Positions 44,814-51,400 of a stretch of DNA of 64,000 bases are shown here, piece after piece. The first letter of the stretch is position 1; every line of letters starts with the position of its first letter. The notes under the pieces were generated by a model. The model had not been told where the DNA came from, did not search any database, and saw only the letters and a program-made list of their open reading frames with translations. The DNA lies in contig JAUZNZ010000001.1 in assembly GCA_030706735.1 (NCBI GenBank), forward strand, positions 62,001 to 126,000, in the 5' to 3' direction. This DNA is from Bacteroidota bacterium (lineage in GTDB: Bacteria; Bacteroidota; Bacteroidia; Chitinophagales; Chitinophagaceae). The position numbers and the translations under genes are program-made.

Positions 44814-45095
44814 CTAGATCTTAAGGATATTATTTTTGTTTTTGGCATACTCTTCCTGTATCAGCTGGATTATCTGGCCTTTGTCTATTTCGCAAAATTT
44901 CGCGATCAGGAACAGTTCTTCGAGCGTGAATTTTTCGACCTTATGCATCAGCTCGGTGAAGCGGTCGACCTTTTTTCCGATATCCCTTGCCACGATCGTC
45001 TTTGGAATGAACTTGAAAATGTCATTGAAAGAAATTATTCTTCCCTCGGTTATCATAGGTTTGATAAGGTAGTATCGTGAATCTTTATCTTCCAT
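44814..45095 (-). CDS. Small HTH-like protein 1 (paralogue of 49668-49952)
   Basis: A 93-residue protein without signal peptide or membrane span. It aligns end to end with the protein at 49668-49952, roughly half the residues identical by eye, with shared blocks IPKTIVA.D.GKKV.RF and KFTL.EL. The stretch IVARDIGKKVDRFTELMHKVEKFTLEELFLIAKFCEID reads like a Cro/XRE-type helix-turn-helix, which makes a DNA-binding regulator likely. It is transcribed away from the DnaE-type polymerase gene. The 320-bp region between them holds two palindromes, so both genes may be controlled from there. Function is inferred; no named family was recognised. Confidence 0.65.
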   Translation of the reverse strand: MEDKDSRYYLIKPMITEGRIISFNDIFKFIPKTIVARDIGKKVDRFTELMHKVEKFTLEELFLIAKFCEIDKGQIIQLIQEEYAKNKNNILKI

Positions 45096-45341
45096 AGTTC
45101 AAAACAAAGAAAAATTATAATACTTTAATTGCGACTAAGGAACAAATTTTGCCAACATCCCAATGTGTTATTTTCTTCTTCCAACTTCTTCTTTTTTTTC
45201 AACCCGTTTTTGTATTTTATAATCCCGCTTACGGTAATTTCTTGAACTGATTTTTCTTTTTTTTAGACCTAATCCTTCTTTTTTTTGACCCTAATTCATT
45301 GACTTCGTATCGTTCATCCATTATATCCGGCATACAAAAAT

Positions 45342-45356
45342 ACTAAATAATTTAGT
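45342..45356. promoter_or_regulatory. Operator-like palindrome 1 (ACTAAATAATTTAGT)
   Basis: Perfect 6-bp arms ACTAAA/TTTAGT around TAA. It differs at only two positions from the palindrome in front of small HTH gene 2 (ATTAAATAATTTAAT). Centre to centre it is 23 bp from palindrome 2, about two helical turns, which would suit cooperative binding. Confidence 0.5.
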
Positions 45357-45363
45357 TAATCAA

Positions 45364-45380
45364 TACTAATAAAATTAGTA
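45364..45380. promoter_or_regulatory. Operator-like palindrome 2 (TACTAATAAAATTAGTA)
   Basis: Perfect 7-bp arms around AAA, with half-sites like those of palindrome 1. It lies immediately upstream of the -7 element and covers the expected -33 region, so a bound protein would block transcription of the polymerase operon. Confidence 0.5.
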
Positions 45381-45388
45381 TTTGTAGG

Positions 45389-45396
45389 TAGTTTTG
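45389..45396 (+). promoter_or_regulatory. -7 element of the DnaE-type/DinB operon
   Basis: TAGTTTTG fits TAnnTTTG at all positions, 20 bp before the ATG at 45417. No TTG is found 19 bp upstream; the palindrome occupies that place, as is common for promoters that need control by a factor. Confidence 0.5.
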
Positions 45397-45416
45397 CCCC
45401 TACAAGACCTATCTGC

Positions 45417-48404
45417 ATGTATATCGGCAAGACCTATTTCAGTTTCAAGTACGGGACCTTTGCTACCGAGGAATTGGTAAAAGCAGCGGGAGAGGCGGGC
45501 ATCACGACGCTGGCGCTGGCCAATATCAATTCGACCTGCGATGCATGGGACTTTTTACAATACTGTAATGAGCAGGGGATCAAGCCGATCCTGGGTGTGG
45601 AGATCCGCAATGCCGCCCAAATGCAGTTCATCCTTCTTGCTGCCAATAACCGCGGTTTTCAATGGATCAATGAATTCCTCTCGGAACATTTGCTGGCCAA
45701 AAAACCATTTCCCGGCAAGGCATCGGGCAAGCCGTTCTTCACAGATCCCGGCGACGGCTTCGTCATCTATCCGCTAGCGGCCAAGGCGCCCGGAGAACTG
45801 TTTTCGAACGAATACATCGGCGTTCAGCCGACGGAAGTGAACAAACTGATCCGAATGCCGGTCAGGGAGTATCCTGGGAAATGGGTCGTCAGGCAGCCGG
45901 TGACCTTTCAAAACAGGATCTATTACAACCTGCATCGGTTATTGAGGGCGGTAGACAAGAATACCCTCCTTACCAAACTCGCTCCTGAGGAATTGGCCGG
46001 GGAGCATGAATATTTCATTCCTCCGGTAGAACTATTCGAAGCATTCAGGCAATATCCGTCGATCCTGATGAACACCTGCCGTCTTACGGAGACCTGCGAA
46101 GTCAGCATGCGTTTCGGAGAGGACAAGAATAAAAAAGTCTTTAGCGCCACCGGCGAAGACGATCGTATCCTCCTGGAAAAATTGGCCAGGGAAGGCTTCG
46201 TGCAGCGCTATGGCGGCAACAAAAAGATCGCGGCCAGGTTGAACAAAGAACTACGGATCATCAGCGAGATGGGCTTCAACGCCTATTTCCTCATCGCCTG
46301 GGACCTGATCCGGTATGCCAGGAGCCGGGGATTCCATCATGTGGGAAGGGGATCAGGGGCAAATTCACTGGTAGCGTATTGCCTGCATATCACCGATGTG
46401 GACCCGATCGAACTGGACCTGTATTTCGAGCGTTTTTTAAACCCTCATCGCACGAGCCCACCGGACTTCGATATCGATTTTTCGTGGAAAGAGCGGGACG
46501 AGATCATCGACTATCTCTTCAAGCGATATGGCAGGCAACATGTGACCCTGCTGGGCATGTATTCCACTTTCCAATACAATGCCATCATCCGTGAATTGGG
46601 CAAGGTCTTCGGTCTGCCCAAGGCCGAGATCGCCCAGCTTGCCGAAAAAGATTACTATAACGGCGACAGCCGGGGGGAGAACTTCATGAAGAAAAAAGAG
46701 GAGGGTAAGATCCAACGCATCATCCTGCAATATGGAAAGCTGCTCCAGAATTTCCCGGAGCACCTCAGCATCCATCCCGGAGGCATTCTGATCAGCGAGG
46801 AGCCGCTGTCTGCGTATTGCGCCCTGCACATGCCGCCAAAGGGCTTTCCCACGGCGCAACTCGACATGTTCATGGCTGAAAATATCGGTCTGTACAAGCT
46901 GGACGTACTCAGCCAGCGGGGACTCGGTCATATCAGGGAGAGCCTGGACCTGATCCGGCAGAACAAAGGGATCGACATTGATATCCACCAAGTACAAAAA
47001 TTCAAGGGGGACGAGAATATCCGTGCGCAAATCCGAAGCGTCAATACGATCGGTTGCTTTTATATCGAGTCTCCCGCCATGCGGAACCTCCTCCAGAAGT
47101 TGCGTTGCGACGACTACCCTACATTGGTCGCGGCAAGCTCGATCATCCGGCCCGGAGTAGGCCGTTCCGGCATGATGCAGGAATATATCCGCCGGTTCCA
47201 TAACCCGAACGGCTTCGCGTACCTGCATCCGAGGTTGAAGGAACTGCTCGGGGAAACGTACGGCGTAATGGTTTATCAGGAGGACGTGATCAAGGTCGCC
47301 CACCACTGGGCCGGCCTGGATATGGCGGACGCAGACCTCTTGCGTCGCGCCACCAGCAGCAAGTACAGGGGGAAGAAGCATTTAAAGGAGCTCAAGGAGC
47401 GTTTTTTTACAAATTGTGAGGGCTTCGGATACCCCAACGAAACGATCGAAGAGGTTTGGCGCCAGATAGAGAGCTTCGCCGACTTCAGCTTTTGCAAGGC
47501 CCATTCCGCCTCTTTTGCCGTGGAATCGTACCAAAGCCTCTTTCTGAAAACCTATTACCCCATGGAATTTGCCGTGGCCGTCATCAACAATTTCGGGGGC
47601 TTTTACAGCAGGGAACTGTATTTCTATGAGCTGATGAAAACGGGAGCCCGGGTATATCCCCCCTGCGTGAATAACAGTGACTACTATACGAATATCCGTG
47701 GAACGGAAGTGCATGCCGGGTTCGTGCATGTACGGGGACTGGAACAGGCGCTGGTGGAAAAGCTGCTGGAAGAGCGGAGGATCGGTGGCCTCTATCTTCA
47801 CCTGGCCGATCTGGTCGAGCGGACAGGCATTACAGCCGAGGCGCTGGAATTGCTGATCCGGGTCGGCGCCCTGCGATTCACCGGAAAGGACAAGAAAACC
47901 CTGCTGTGGGAGGGCGATTTCCTCCAAAAAAAGACCAGGTCCCCCTCACCTGCCTGCCGGCCTCTGTTCACCGAAGCGCCCCTGGCATTCCGGCTCCCTG
48001 AATTTCCCATCTATTCACTGGACGACCTATACGACGAGGTCGAGCTCCTGGGATTTCCCATGCGCGATCCTTTCCAACTGGTGGATGAAGATCCGGCGAG
48101 GTACGTGGCGGCAAGAGAACTGGCGGCGCATAGCGGGCAAATCGTCACCGTATTGGGTTATCACATCACCCATAAACCGGTGCGGACAGTGAAGGGGCAG
48201 ACCATGAGCTTCGGGACTTTCCTGGATCAAAACAAAGATTGGATCGACACGGTACATTTTCCGGACATCCATGCCCTCCATCCGCCCCGGGCCGGCTTTT
48301 ACAGGATCAGGGGGAAGGTCGTGGAAGAATTCGGAACGTATAGCATTGAGGTCACGGGGATAGAAAAAGCAAACATAAAAAACAGAAACGCAATACCGCA
48401 TTGA
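45417..48404 (+). CDS. Short DnaE-type DNA polymerase III alpha subunit (DnaE2-like)
   Basis: A C-family polymerase of 995 residues, shorter than a replicative DnaE (about 1160 or more). The catalytic aspartates are in PPDFDIDFSW near residue 350 and in LYKLDVLSQRGLG near 492. The N-terminal PHP domain is degenerate: where proofreading-competent PHP domains have a HxH-type start and a DHG motif, this protein has YIGKTYFSFKYGT and ALANINS, so PHP metal binding is probably lost. A C-terminal OB fold (GQIVTVLGYHI...RIRGKVVEEFGTYSIEV) is present, and the tau-binding tail seems missing. Its stop lies 2 bp before the dinB ATG. Together these suggest an error-prone accessory polymerase used in lesion bypass, not the main replicase. 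Confidence 0.85.
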   Translation: MYIGKTYFSFKYGTFATEELVKAAGEAGITTLALANINSTCDAWDFLQYCNEQGIKPILGVEIRNAAQMQFILLAANNRGFQWINEFLSEHLLAKKPFPGKASGKPFFTDPGDGFVIYPLAAKAPGELFSNEYIGVQPTEVNKLIRMPVREYPGKWVVRQPVTFQNRIYYNLHRLLRAVDKNTLLTKLAPEELAGEHEYFIPPVELFEAFRQYPSILMNTCRLTETCEVSMRFGEDKNKKVFSATGEDDRILLEKLAREGFVQRYGGNKKIAARLNKELRIISEMGFNAYFLIAWDLIRYARSRGFHHVGRGSGANSLVAYCLHITDVDPIELDLYFERFLNPHRTSPPDFDIDFSWKERDEIIDYLFKRYGRQHVTLLGMYSTFQYNAIIRELGKVFGLPKAEIAQLAEKDYYNGDSRGENFMKKKEEGKIQRIILQYGKLLQNFPEHLSIHPGGILISEEPLSAYCALHMPPKGFPTAQLDMFMAENIGLYKLDVLSQRGLGHIRESLDLIRQNKGIDIDIHQVQKFKGDENIRAQIRSVNTIGCFYIESPAMRNLLQKLRCDDYPTLVAASSIIRPGVGRSGMMQEYIRRFHNPNGFAYLHPRLKELLGETYGVMVYQEDVIKVAHHWAGLDMADADLLRRATSSKYRGKKHLKELKERFFTNCEGFGYPNETIEEVWRQIESFADFSFCKAHSASFAVESYQSLFLKTYYPMEFAVAVINNFGGFYSRELYFYELMKTGARVYPPCVNNSDYYTNIRGTEVHAGFVHVRGLEQALVEKLLEERRIGGLYLHLADLVERTGITAEALELLIRVGALRFTGKDKKTLLWEGDFLQKKTRSPSPACRPLFTEAPLAFRLPEFPIYSLDDLYDEVELLGFPMRDPFQLVDEDPARYVAARELAAHSGQIVTVLGYHITHKPVRTVKGQTMSFGTFLDQNKDWIDTVHFPDIHALHPPRAGFYRIRGKVVEEFGTYSIEVTGIEKANIKNRNAIPH

Positions 48405-48406
48405 TC

Positions 48407-49564
48407 ATGCTCCTCTCCCAGTACCGGCATATCGCCCATTTCGACCTGGATGCCTTCTTTGTGTCCGTAGAATGCCTGAAAGACTCGCGTCTTAGGGGAA
48501 AGCCGCTGATCGTAGGCGGATCCGGTGACCGCGGCGTGGTCACTTCATGCAGCTACGAGGCGCGCAAATCCGGCGTGCATAGCGCGATGCCCATCCGGCT
48601 GGCCCGGAGGCTGTGCCCGGACGTGCTGGTCATTAAAGGGGATTTTGAGTCCTATTCCAGGTATTCACGTATCGTTACGGACATTATGCGGGATAATGCA
48701 CCCCTTTTTGAGAAAGCCTCGATCGACGAATTCTACCTCGACCTGACCGGCATGGACAAATTTTTCGGATGCCGTCTTTTTATCGCCGAGTTGCGGAAAA
48801 AGGTATTGAAGGAGAGCGGCTTGCCGGTTTCGTACGCCCTGGCGAGCAATAAACTGATCAGCAAGGTCGCCACCAATGAAGGCAAGCCCAACGGACAGCT
48901 CGAGATCCCGTTCGGATCGGAAAGGGAGTTTCTGGCCCCGTTGCCCGTGTCGAAATTACCAGGTATTGGACAAGACACAGCCTTCAAGCTCATCCGCCGC
49001 GGGGTAGAGACGCTGAAAACACTGAGCGAGATCCCGGTCGATATGATGAGCGCCTTGCTGGGCAAAAATGGCATCGAGCTCTGGCGAAAGGCCAATGGTC
49101 TTGATGAATCCCCGGTCATCCCTTATCATGAACAGAAATCCATCTCCACTGAGCGGACCTTTCAGCAAGACACCATCGATATAGGCTACCTCCATGCCGA
49201 ACTGGTGCGAATGACGGAATCTATCGCGTTCGAGTTACGGAAGCAGGATCGGCTCACCGGCTGCGTCACCGTCAAACTAAGGTATTCCAATTTCGATACC
49301 GTCACACGCCAGGCGGCGATCGATCAAACCAATGCCGACCATATCCTCTTGCGGACAGCCGGGGCCCTTTTTAACAGGCTCTATGACAGACGCATGCTGA
49401 TCCGCCTGCTGGGCATACGTTTTACACACCTCGTGCCGGGAAATTACCAGATCAAGCTCTTCGAAGATACCCAGGAGATGATACGCCTTTATCAATCGAT
49501 CGATCATATCAAGCGACGATACGGAAGCATGCTGATCGGCCGTGCGGCCGGAAGAGTTCCCTGA
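48407..49564 (+). CDS. dinB: DNA polymerase IV, Y family
   Basis: Translesion polymerase of about 385 residues. I use the ATG at 48407 rather than the TTG at 48401 that overlaps the upstream stop. Catalytic residues are intact: HFDLDAFFVSVE at the N terminus and KASIDEFYLDLTG near residue 105. The steric-gate region SYEARKSGVHSAMPI is normal, a helix-hairpin-helix (VSKLPGIGQDTAFKLI) follows near 185, and the little-finger domain completes it. It is therefore an active DinB and not the inactive ImuB of actinobacterial or proteobacterial mutasomes. Coupled to the DnaE-type gene, it may work with that polymerase at lesions. Confidence 0.93.
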   Translation: MLLSQYRHIAHFDLDAFFVSVECLKDSRLRGKPLIVGGSGDRGVVTSCSYEARKSGVHSAMPIRLARRLCPDVLVIKGDFESYSRYSRIVTDIMRDNAPLFEKASIDEFYLDLTGMDKFFGCRLFIAELRKKVLKESGLPVSYALASNKLISKVATNEGKPNGQLEIPFGSEREFLAPLPVSKLPGIGQDTAFKLIRRGVETLKTLSEIPVDMMSALLGKNGIELWRKANGLDESPVIPYHEQKSISTERTFQQDTIDIGYLHAELVRMTESIAFELRKQDRLTGCVTVKLRYSNFDTVTRQAAIDQTNADHILLRTAGALFNRLYDRRMLIRLLGIRFTHLVPGNYQIKLFEDTQEMIRLYQSIDHIKRRYGSMLIGRAAGRVP

Positions 49565-49634
49565 ATTAACGGACAAAACGGCACTAACGACGGAAAGTTT
49601 GGGAGTATTGGCGGACAGATCGGGAGTATGAACA

Positions 49635-49649
49635 ATTAAATAATTTAAT
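49635..49649. promoter_or_regulatory. Operator-like palindrome 3 (ATTAAATAATTTAAT)
   Basis: Perfect 6-bp arms around TAA, the same architecture as 45342-45356 with 13 of 15 bases identical. It ends 18 bp before the ATG of small HTH gene 2, so it would overlap that gene's promoter. Confidence 0.5.
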
Positions 49650-49667
49650 AAATCCTTTTATTTGTCT

Positions 49668-49952
49668 ATGGATCGTGATCCACGCTATGACCTTATCAAG
49701 GAAAAGATTGCAAAAGGGAATATTAAATCCTTTAATGAAATATTTTTCTTTATCCCCAAGACCATCGTCGCCAATGATCTTGGCAAAAAGGTCAATCGCT
49801 TCAACGAAATGATGGACCATGTCGGCAAATTCACGTTAGATGAGCTTTACGTCCTTGCGAGGAACTTCAAGATCCCGATGACCGAACTTCAGCTGGTGCA
49901 CGTCGAGTTCGAGAGGCAGGTAAAAAAACTCAATAAAGCAGACCAATCATAG
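49668..49952 (+). CDS. Small HTH-like protein 2 (paralogue of 44814-45095)
   Basis: About 94 residues. The track starts at a TTG (49662); the ATG at 49668 (MDRDPRYDLIKEKI) aligns with the start of the paralogue and is preferred. It shares SFNEIFFFIPKTIVANDLGKKVNRF and KFTLDELYVLAR with small HTH protein 1. The second half has the spacing of a Cro/XRE helix-turn-helix. It lies 103 bp after dinB with its own operator-like palindrome in front, suggesting autoregulation. Likely a DNA-binding regulator of the cassette; a direct role at the replication fork cannot be excluded. Confidence 0.65.
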   Translation: MDRDPRYDLIKEKIAKGNIKSFNEIFFFIPKTIVANDLGKKVNRFNEMMDHVGKFTLDELYVLARNFKIPMTELQLVHVEFERQVKKLNKADQS

Positions 49953-49993
49953 TTCCAGGACCATTACTTATCCTTTAGTGTCCTTGTTACTCC

Positions 49994-50023
49994 AAGGTCA
50001 TCCTGCCGCGGCAGGATGACCTT
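49994..50023. terminator. Perfect 30-bp palindrome, probable terminator
   Basis: AAGGTCATCCTGCCG is followed directly by its exact reverse complement. The next bases (GTTCTTTCTT) are T-rich on the plus strand. It closes the polymerase/HTH transcript before the next gene at 50094. A bidirectional role is possible. Confidence 0.6.
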
Positions 50024-50093
50024 GTTCTTTCTTATGCTGCCTGTGGCCGGCATGCATACGGACAGCATGAAAAATTCGTAACTTGTCCATGCC

Positions 50094-50591
50094 ATGTACA
50101 ATCCATTTCCCGTGCTGACTGAGGCGATATTGCATGCCGAGATGGCGAATGGAAAGCGATTTTTCGTTCGCCAATATTTTGCGAGGGGAATGGACGCCCA
50201 TCTGAGAGCGGCATTCCTGTTCCGGGGCTACCCGGAGGAGGAGAAAGACCAGGCCGAAAGTCATTTGGCCGCTATCGCGCGGGATCCCAATGCCTTTCTG
50301 TACGATGCGCTGGTGCCTGAGCATCTCAGCAAGCTGCGAACCGCGGCAGATCAACCGTTCGGCTTCAGGGTCTACTATGCGGCCAAGAGGGGGAAGGATT
50401 GGAAGCCGCCGGCGGTCTATGATGAAAAGATGAAGCGTTATATACGGCGCCATCACGGTCACTGGCGTACCAAACGGGGGGGAGATAAGATTGAGGTCGG
50501 CCTGTACGAAGAATTCGGAGAATTGTTCATTAAATTCAGCTATCTGGGGGAGGAAGACAGGATCCCTTTCAATGACATCGAAAAATATTAA
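50094..50591 (+). CDS. Conserved-looking hypothetical protein upstream of SRAP
   Basis: A 165-residue soluble protein that I do not recognise. It is mixed charged, with a helical first half (EEEKDQAESHLAAIARDPN) and a strongly basic middle (YIRRHHGHWRTKRGGDKIEV), then a strand-rich end (GELFIKFSYLGEEDRIPFNDIEKY). The basic part could bind nucleic acid. It lies 8 bp before the SRAP gene, so the two are cotranscribed and probably share a task. No catalytic motif stands out. Confidence 0.65.
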   Translation: MYNPFPVLTEAILHAEMANGKRFFVRQYFARGMDAHLRAAFLFRGYPEEEKDQAESHLAAIARDPNAFLYDALVPEHLSKLRTAADQPFGFRVYYAAKRGKDWKPPAVYDEKMKRYIRRHHGHWRTKRGGDKIEVGLYEEFGELFIKFSYLGEEDRIPFNDIEKY

Positions 50592-50599
50592 GGAACGAT

Positions 50600-51400
50600 A
50601 TGTGTTTGGATATTGCCTATTATTCTGCGCTCGAACTGCTTGACGTTTATTTCCCCGAGTTGGTGCATGACGGCCAGTTACCGTTCGACCTGGACATGGG
50701 TATGCATTTCCTCGCATTGGGTCACAATCGTTATCCGGTCATCACCTTTGCCGAAGGCCGCTATCATCGCAAGTATTTCGAGTGGGGCATCATTGCGGAA
50801 TATATGGATACGCCGGAAAAGATCAAGGCCATGCGTAAATCCATGGTAAATGCACGAAGCGAGAAGATCCTTGATGATAAACGTTCCTTCTGGCATCGTA
50901 TCCGGCAAACCCGTTGCCTGATCCCTGTAACGGGAATCTATGAGCACAGGGAAGTGAAGGGATGGAAGAATAAGATACCTTATCATGTCAGGCTGAAAGA
51001 CCGGCCGATGTTCTGTATCCCCGGACTGTATCACTTCAATACCAGGATCCCTTCCGATCCGGAGACAGGCGAGATGCGAGGCATGTTCACGCTGATCACG
51101 CGGCCCGGTAATGAGATTATGTGCCAGATCCACAATTCGGGTGAGAATGCGCACCGGATGCCGTTGTTCCTTCCCCGAGAGCTTGAACTGCGTTGGCTGG
51201 ATCCGGATCTGACGGAAGAAGCCATGGCGGAGATCCTGGGGTATGAGATGGCTTCCGACCAGGTCGAATATCATACCGTATTCAGCATCCGGGGCCGGAA
51301 TCCGAGGCCGGATGGCAAACCGAAGAATGAGCCTTACGATTATCCTAATCTTCCGGCATTGGGCACAGATGCGGGATCGACGCAAAAGGCCCTGTTTTAG
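50600..51400 (+). CDS. SOS response-associated peptidase (SRAP) family protein, YedK/HMCES-like
   Basis: A 266-residue SRAP protein. After removal of the first Met the catalytic Cys2 (MCLDIAYYS) becomes the N terminus; in YedK and HMCES it forms a stable link to abasic sites in single-stranded DNA. The family core RCLIPVTGIYEHR (usually PADGFYEW), GLYHFNTR, FTLITRPGNEIM and the histidine in QIHNSGENAHRMPLFL are present. It is longer than YedK (222 residues). It lies 8 bp after the unknown 165-residue gene and next to the translesion polymerases, consistent with a role in tolerance of abasic sites. Confidence 0.88.
   Translation: MCLDIAYYSALELLDVYFPELVHDGQLPFDLDMGMHFLALGHNRYPVITFAEGRYHRKYFEWGIIAEYMDTPEKIKAMRKSMVNARSEKILDDKRSFWHRIRQTRCLIPVTGIYEHREVKGWKNKIPYHVRLKDRPMFCIPGLYHFNTRIPSDPETGEMRGMFTLITRPGNEIMCQIHNSGENAHRMPLFLPRELELRWLDPDLTEEAMAEILGYEMASDQVEYHTVFSIRGRNPRPDGKPKNEPYDYPNLPALGTDAGSTQKALF

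Follow-up and report, generated by a model that had tools for sequence, protein, structure and literature searches.

A dnaE-dinB locus with LexA operators in a member of the Bacteroidota, joined by an apparently undescribed SRAP-linked protein and by small proteins that are possible local regulators

Does the cluster of six genes at positions 44814-51400 of the window, by which we mean the whole 64,000-nucleotide stretch analyzed, form a self-contained damage-response cassette in which two small proteins take the place of LexA, as the initial annotation proposed, or does it belong to an SOS regulon governed from elsewhere in the genome? All six open reading frames were found again in the position and order first described, and the linkage among them, whose absence from related genomes had been named in advance as a refuting result, is seen in the closest relatives. 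We read the cluster as an SOS operon of known kind, controlled through LexA operators, together with two apparently undescribed additions; the linkage, operators, residues and box statistics given below are the results of the tools used, and what we say of function is inferred from them. PADLOC gave no match to a defense system and Rfam none to an RNA element. An origin in a phage or plasmid was rejected, as P0004 and P0005 had no match among viral contigs and P0004 had none among plasmids.

At the center of the cluster lies a short, DnaE2-like polymerase of 995 residues (45417-48404, forward strand) comprising the PHP, pol3_alpha, finger and HHH_6 domains of Pfam, in which the PHP histidines were not seen on inspection by eye. 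Its partner, a DinB or Y-family polymerase (48407-49564, forward strand), likely starts at the ATG at 48407, 2 nt past the dnaE stop, rather than at the TTG at 48401, and consists of IMS and IMS_C with the catalytic motifs DLDAFF and SIDEFYLDL intact; a QIKLF clamp motif was noted by eye, and the tail IDHIKRRYGSMLIGRA resembles the RecA-NT motif as judged by eye only, not by a profile. The Pfam domains and DinB motifs support the original description of a short DnaE-type polymerase coupled to an intact DinB. The pair, which is 2 nt apart here, is conserved in relatives; across the order, DnaE taken by itself was seen in 141 of 299 genomes. A dnaE homologue in a congener (G279:C17:454462-457451) is spread over two overlapping frames and appears broken. 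Since dnaE-dinB is a described Bacteroidetes mutasome type, in which DnaE2 is accompanied by an active Y-family polymerase (PMC6511836, PMC12926913), the suggestion of an undescribed system fails for this pair; it stands for the 165-residue protein, called DUF165 here, and for the small proteins, both of which appear undescribed within the libraries and papers searched.

The probable control of this pair can be read from two perfect CTAA-N5-TTAG dyads, ACTAAATAATTTAGT and ACTAATAAAATTAGT, located 38-75 bp 5' of dnaE and 23 bp apart, which show that the AT-rich palindromes first noticed there are genuine. Both are predicted LexA operators by the motif of PMC8565304 (operator 1, ACTAA-ATAAT-TTAGT, 45342-45356; operator 2, ACTAA-TAAAA-TTAGT, 45365-45379), and the second is kept in relatives. 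That paper describes binding of CTAA-N5-TTAG by a Bacteroidetes HTH-S24 repressor, a non-canonical LexA, in EMSA, and lists dinB, umuDC, imuA-imuB-dnaE2 and SRAP (COG2135) as predicted targets (PMC8565304). Because the relaxed form RCTAA-N5-TTAGY was not enriched in the genome (10 sites vs. 19 for the control), only strict sites were used. The strict form ACTAANNNNNTTAGT (ACTAA-N5-TTAGT) occurs at 8 sites in the 5.05 Mb genome vs. 2 for the reversed control: two at dnaE, one at umuD, one directly 5' of imuA-imuB-dnaE2 and one directly 5' of a gene on contig C57 that itself encodes a 249-residue repressor with HTH_3 and Peptidase_S24 domains. The remaining sites precede a 131-residue XRE gene and an ORF6N gene or, in one case that we take as chance, lie within a gene. 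The XRE gene (L068:4521-4950, contig C16 of the same genome) lacks S24, and the 21-bp core of its LexA-type operator is the reverse complement of operator 2 of the window; the strict site of the ORF6N-domain gene (L066:4367-4953, contig C8) is directly 5' of that gene. The degenerate palindrome 5' of the second small gene (ATTAA-ATAAT-TTAAT, 49635-49649) was rejected as a LexA site and not counted, the C and G of the dyad being missing.

Operators are also found 5' of dnaE/dinB in most relatives of the family, with or without a small gene, and at 33 of 76 loci across the phylum. At two loci (L051, L053) a different HTH-S24 gene adjoins the dinB-dnaE pair, no CTAA-N5-TTAG site is present and other AT-rich dyads are visible by eye, which suggests that operator and repressor changed together. 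We consider it very probable, judging from sequence, that dnaE-dinB of the window is under the control of a non-canonical LexA encoded in trans. The initial annotation was correct in that no S24 gene lies within the window, the only two S24 matches of the genome being on contigs C43 and C57; its description of the cassette as self-contained is not supported, since umuDC, imuA-imuB-dnaE2 and the HTH-S24 gene encoded in trans have operators of the same kind.

What, then, do the small proteins do? The first, smallA (93 residues, 44814-45095, reverse strand), is divergent from dnaE, and the second, smallB (94 residues, 49668-49952, forward strand, most likely starting at the ATG at 49668), follows dinB; the two are paralogous, as first stated, with 53% identity over 83 residues (E 4e-28), and a third, more distant copy is present on contig C4. 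These proteins are predicted to be all-helical, and nearly all of their best Foldseek matches are Cro/CI-type regulators, including LexA-like proteins and DdrO, at E values of 0.3-1 that are below significance. HTH_26 was matched by smallA at E 0.056 and by the homologue in G716 at E 2.9e-4, with 21.5 bits vs. a cut-off of 22.0. A PDB sequence search with the family gave only spurious repeat-protein matches, and hhalign found no match between the family and the LexA-like protein of contig C57. They are probable HTH proteins of the Cro/C1 type that lack the S24 self-cleavage domain. An HTH-like fold, a divergent position, recurrent linkage and a conserved array of boxes in the shared intergenic region would all be compatible with an autonomous cassette in which such proteins replace LexA as local repressors; however, the operators are perfect and the genome encodes a cognate HTH-S24 repressor with the same operator, most dnaE-dinB loci have operators and no small gene, and proteins devoid of S24 have no such domain with which to sense RecA. 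We therefore rejected the replacement of LexA, which we regard as highly improbable. What survives of the original proposal is that the HTH-like look and recurrent linkage to polymerases leave an auxiliary local role possible.

The small family is sparse: 11 of 299 genomes have it, and neither of the two congeners searched does. Nevertheless, its members recur beside polymerase genes: a small gene adjoins or diverges from dnaE-dinB in the genome under study (G000) and in G002, G235, G247, G030, G049, L237 and L240 (SZAS-47), and in G716 one diverges from umuD-umuC-DUF165-SRAP. The position of smallA is likewise taken by a homologue in L237, a Puia dinghuensis MAG, and in L240; L237 has small genes on both flanks, as in the window, with a two-domain form on the downstream side. 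Taken across genomes, small genes are divergent from polymerase operons with LexA operators in at least five genera. One may argue that the family is selfish or resembles toxin-antitoxin systems, with its placement near polymerases incidental and its boxes purely autoregulatory, given several copies per genome, many of them away from SOS genes, together with the sparse distribution, the two-domain duplication in L237 and a 44-bp spacing of the boxes at two copies outside SOS loci. We find this somewhat unlikely, as small genes adjoin dnaE-dinB or umuDC repeatedly, in at least five genera, where chance would give only ~0.02 adjacencies for 23 copies in genomes of ~5 Mb. As for auxiliary regulators, we would put the notion that the small proteins regulate dnaE a little short of an even chance.

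Candidate sites for such regulation lie 5' of the small genes. On the small-gene strand, runs of A followed by G are enriched in these upstream regions (9 of 16 vs. 15 of 144 control upstream regions), and this was not replicated for the A6G box in distant members of the family (3 of 17). With a pattern that was chosen after looking, tandem A5-8G boxes 20-24 bp apart yielded 9 pairs in 7 of 8 divergent small/polymerase intergenic regions, not all of which are independent (G002, G235 and G247 are of one genus), as compared to a mean of 0.16 and a maximum of 2 in 1000 shuffles; the spacing had been noticed without recourse to L237, L240 and L040. In the window, three A8G boxes are present on the reverse strand between smallA and the LexA operators (within 45191-45286), at 45191-45199, 45256-45264 and 45278-45286, with 22 bp from the second to the third. 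A-tracts two helical turns apart bend DNA, and the regions are AT-rich; accordingly, the chief rival to a binding array is that the boxes are phased A-tracts giving curved promoter DNA, or else UP elements, and not sites for the small proteins. We judge this unlikely in view of three observations: no such pair occurs in any of 53 control intergenic regions of matched length and GC, the G after the tract recurs, often with TA next, and the boxes accompany small genes, some of them away from SOS genes. A binding array for the small proteins is the simplest reading of these predicted sites, and whether the proteins in fact bind A5-8G boxes we would call evenly balanced.

The second addition is DUF165 (165 residues, 50094-50591, forward strand), which is followed by a 266-residue SRAP protein (50600-51400, forward strand; PF02586, E 9e-30). 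The claim that DUF165 is an unknown protein is upheld, with no Pfam, NCBIfam or PDB match in profile and sequence searches and nothing in the PDB by fold search with an AlphaFold model that is itself confident (pLDDT 92.5). Within the order, 11 of 299 genomes carry a homologue, every one of them belonging to the same family, and a phylum-wide search gave matches only within that family, so that the range of DUF165 looks narrow. SRAP is present in 64 of 120 genomes of the family; among the 28 DUF165 genes gathered by reading SRAP neighborhoods, 25 are immediately 5' of SRAP, a median of 2 nt away, and no variation is seen at Y46, A54, H57, W124 and G142 across the 28. The usual surroundings are an operator, umuD, umuC, DUF165 and SRAP, in that order. 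Exceptions include a second copy in G292, where operators are present and SRAP is absent, and the copy in G024, where DUF165 follows umuC on the strand opposite to SRAP.

This linkage bears out the proposed pairing of the 165-residue protein with SRAP, and we deem a functional partnership quite probable from gene order; direct binding of DUF165 to SRAP we see as an even proposition. Alternatively, DUF165 could serve the Y-family mutasome as a UmuD-like accessory subunit instead of pairing with SRAP: it sits between umuC and SRAP in most operons, it stays with umuC in the counter-case of G024, and SRAP-like proteins have themselves been proposed as PolY-linked subunits (PMC12926913). However, DUF165 stays with SRAP where umuC is absent (L133, L210, L219, L221) and umuD is also present wherever umuC is, and we regard a mutasome subunit as unlikely.

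The SRAP protein of the window has all of the active-site residues Cys2, Asn84, Glu115 and His178, the roles of which are described in PMC9436759. In the SRAP tree, the DUF165-linked proteins are divided between two lineages. The SRAP of the window is sister to that of G721, where the order is dnaE-dinB-DUF165-SRAP; the main DUF165-linked clade has 7 rather than 4 residues from the active-site His to RMP. In another SRAP clade, convergent with dinB-dnaE, a different conserved protein of ~80 residues is encoded 5' of SRAP (L037, L039, L043, L126, L127, L128, L201, L207, L224, L225); it ends in ...FWTSIPEGRQ-EA--IG-LIE, and the member tested had no Pfam or NCBIfam match. It thus seems that SRAP has two alternative small partners. 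Four SRAP paralogues in G722 (L233-L236) start with MQ instead of MC, are devoid of the H...RMP motif and look catalytically dead.

Whether DUF165 and SRAP are induced together with dnaE-dinB is less clear. The order dnaE-dinB-DUF165-SRAP recurs in L217, L238, L240 and L252, and in the last three it forms a tight operon with dinB-DUF165 gaps of 3-9 nt. Within the window, dinB is separated from DUF165 by smallB and by a 32-bp perfect palindrome (49993-50024) in the gap between smallB and DUF165 that resembles a terminator hairpin, and co-induction is uncertain here because DUF165-SRAP lies behind both and has no LexA operator of its own.

We surmise that the non-canonical LexA of contig C57 would bind both operators and repress dnaE-dinB; upon DNA damage, RecA would trigger LexA self-cleavage, as in systems of known kind, and the DnaE2-like and DinB polymerases would then be made as a mutasome. 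DUF165-SRAP would be a second module that in most cases ends a umuD-umuC SOS operon, and its position behind dnaE-dinB in this lineage may allow SRAP, an abasic-site crosslinker, to be produced along with the bypass polymerases. The most likely role of DUF165 is one exercised jointly with SRAP: it could, for instance, bind SRAP and either position it at lesions close to the polymerase or free it there. The small proteins, for their part, would most likely bind the A5-8G boxes on the smallA side of the LexA operators, regulate their own gene and modulate the polymerase operon on top of LexA. As a whole, this account of an SOS-regulon branch with a DUF165-SRAP module and a possible small-protein layer strikes us as moderately probable. 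A bolder version, in which SOS translesion operons of the Chitinophagaceae and close relatives have a LexA-independent second layer, made up of a small Cro-like HTH protein bound to a tandem A-tract array next to the LexA operators, and with DUF165 obligately coupling SRAP to the polymerases in an abasic-site-handling mutasome, is doubtful. If true, an HTH gene and box array beside LexA operators would constitute a testable second switch for mutagenesis in Bacteroidota, and DUF165 directly 5' of SRAP in many LexA-operator operons offers a way into the question of whether SRAP cooperates with the mutasome or opposes it.

Compared to known systems, the small proteins are akin to Cro/C1-type HTH regulators (HTH_26) in predicted fold and in a near-threshold sequence match, but a significant profile match is missing for smallB and most other members. 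In their proposed role, they can be likened to DdiA of Myxococcus xanthus, an XRE-type regulator that activates the error-prone dnaE2 gene besides LexA (PMC12288472); DdiA has been characterized experimentally, whereas the role of the small proteins is a predicted one. With the LexA regulon set out in the searched text of PMC8565304, the locus shares CTAA-N5-TTAG, paired copies ~23 bp apart, an HTH+S24 repressor with its own operator, and dinB-dnaE, umuDC and imuA-imuB-dnaE2 as targets; the DUF165 and small-protein families are not described in that text. As in the Bacteroidetes DnaE2(B)-PolY(-RecA) mutasome, a DnaE2-like gene adjoins a catalytically intact Y-family polymerase (PMC6511836, PMC12926913), and in contrast to it, DUF165, SRAP and the small genes are additions here. 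DnaE2B has been reported from genomes without ImuA/ImuB (PMC6511836, PMC12926913); unlike that pattern, the host genome has imuA-imuB-dnaE2 (L065, contig C46) alongside dnaE-dinB and umuDC, and the pair of the window resembles this mutasome by gene arrangement, with the absence of ImuA/ImuB being a correlate and not a definition. Lastly, the SRAP protein agrees with YedK-HMCES in PF02586, in its N-terminal Cys, Asn, Glu and His, and in having umuDC or dinB-dnaE as neighbors (PMC3765255, PMC9436759), but differs in that a conserved small partner protein is encoded 5' of it and that, in the main DUF165-linked clade, the His-RMP loop is 3 residues longer.
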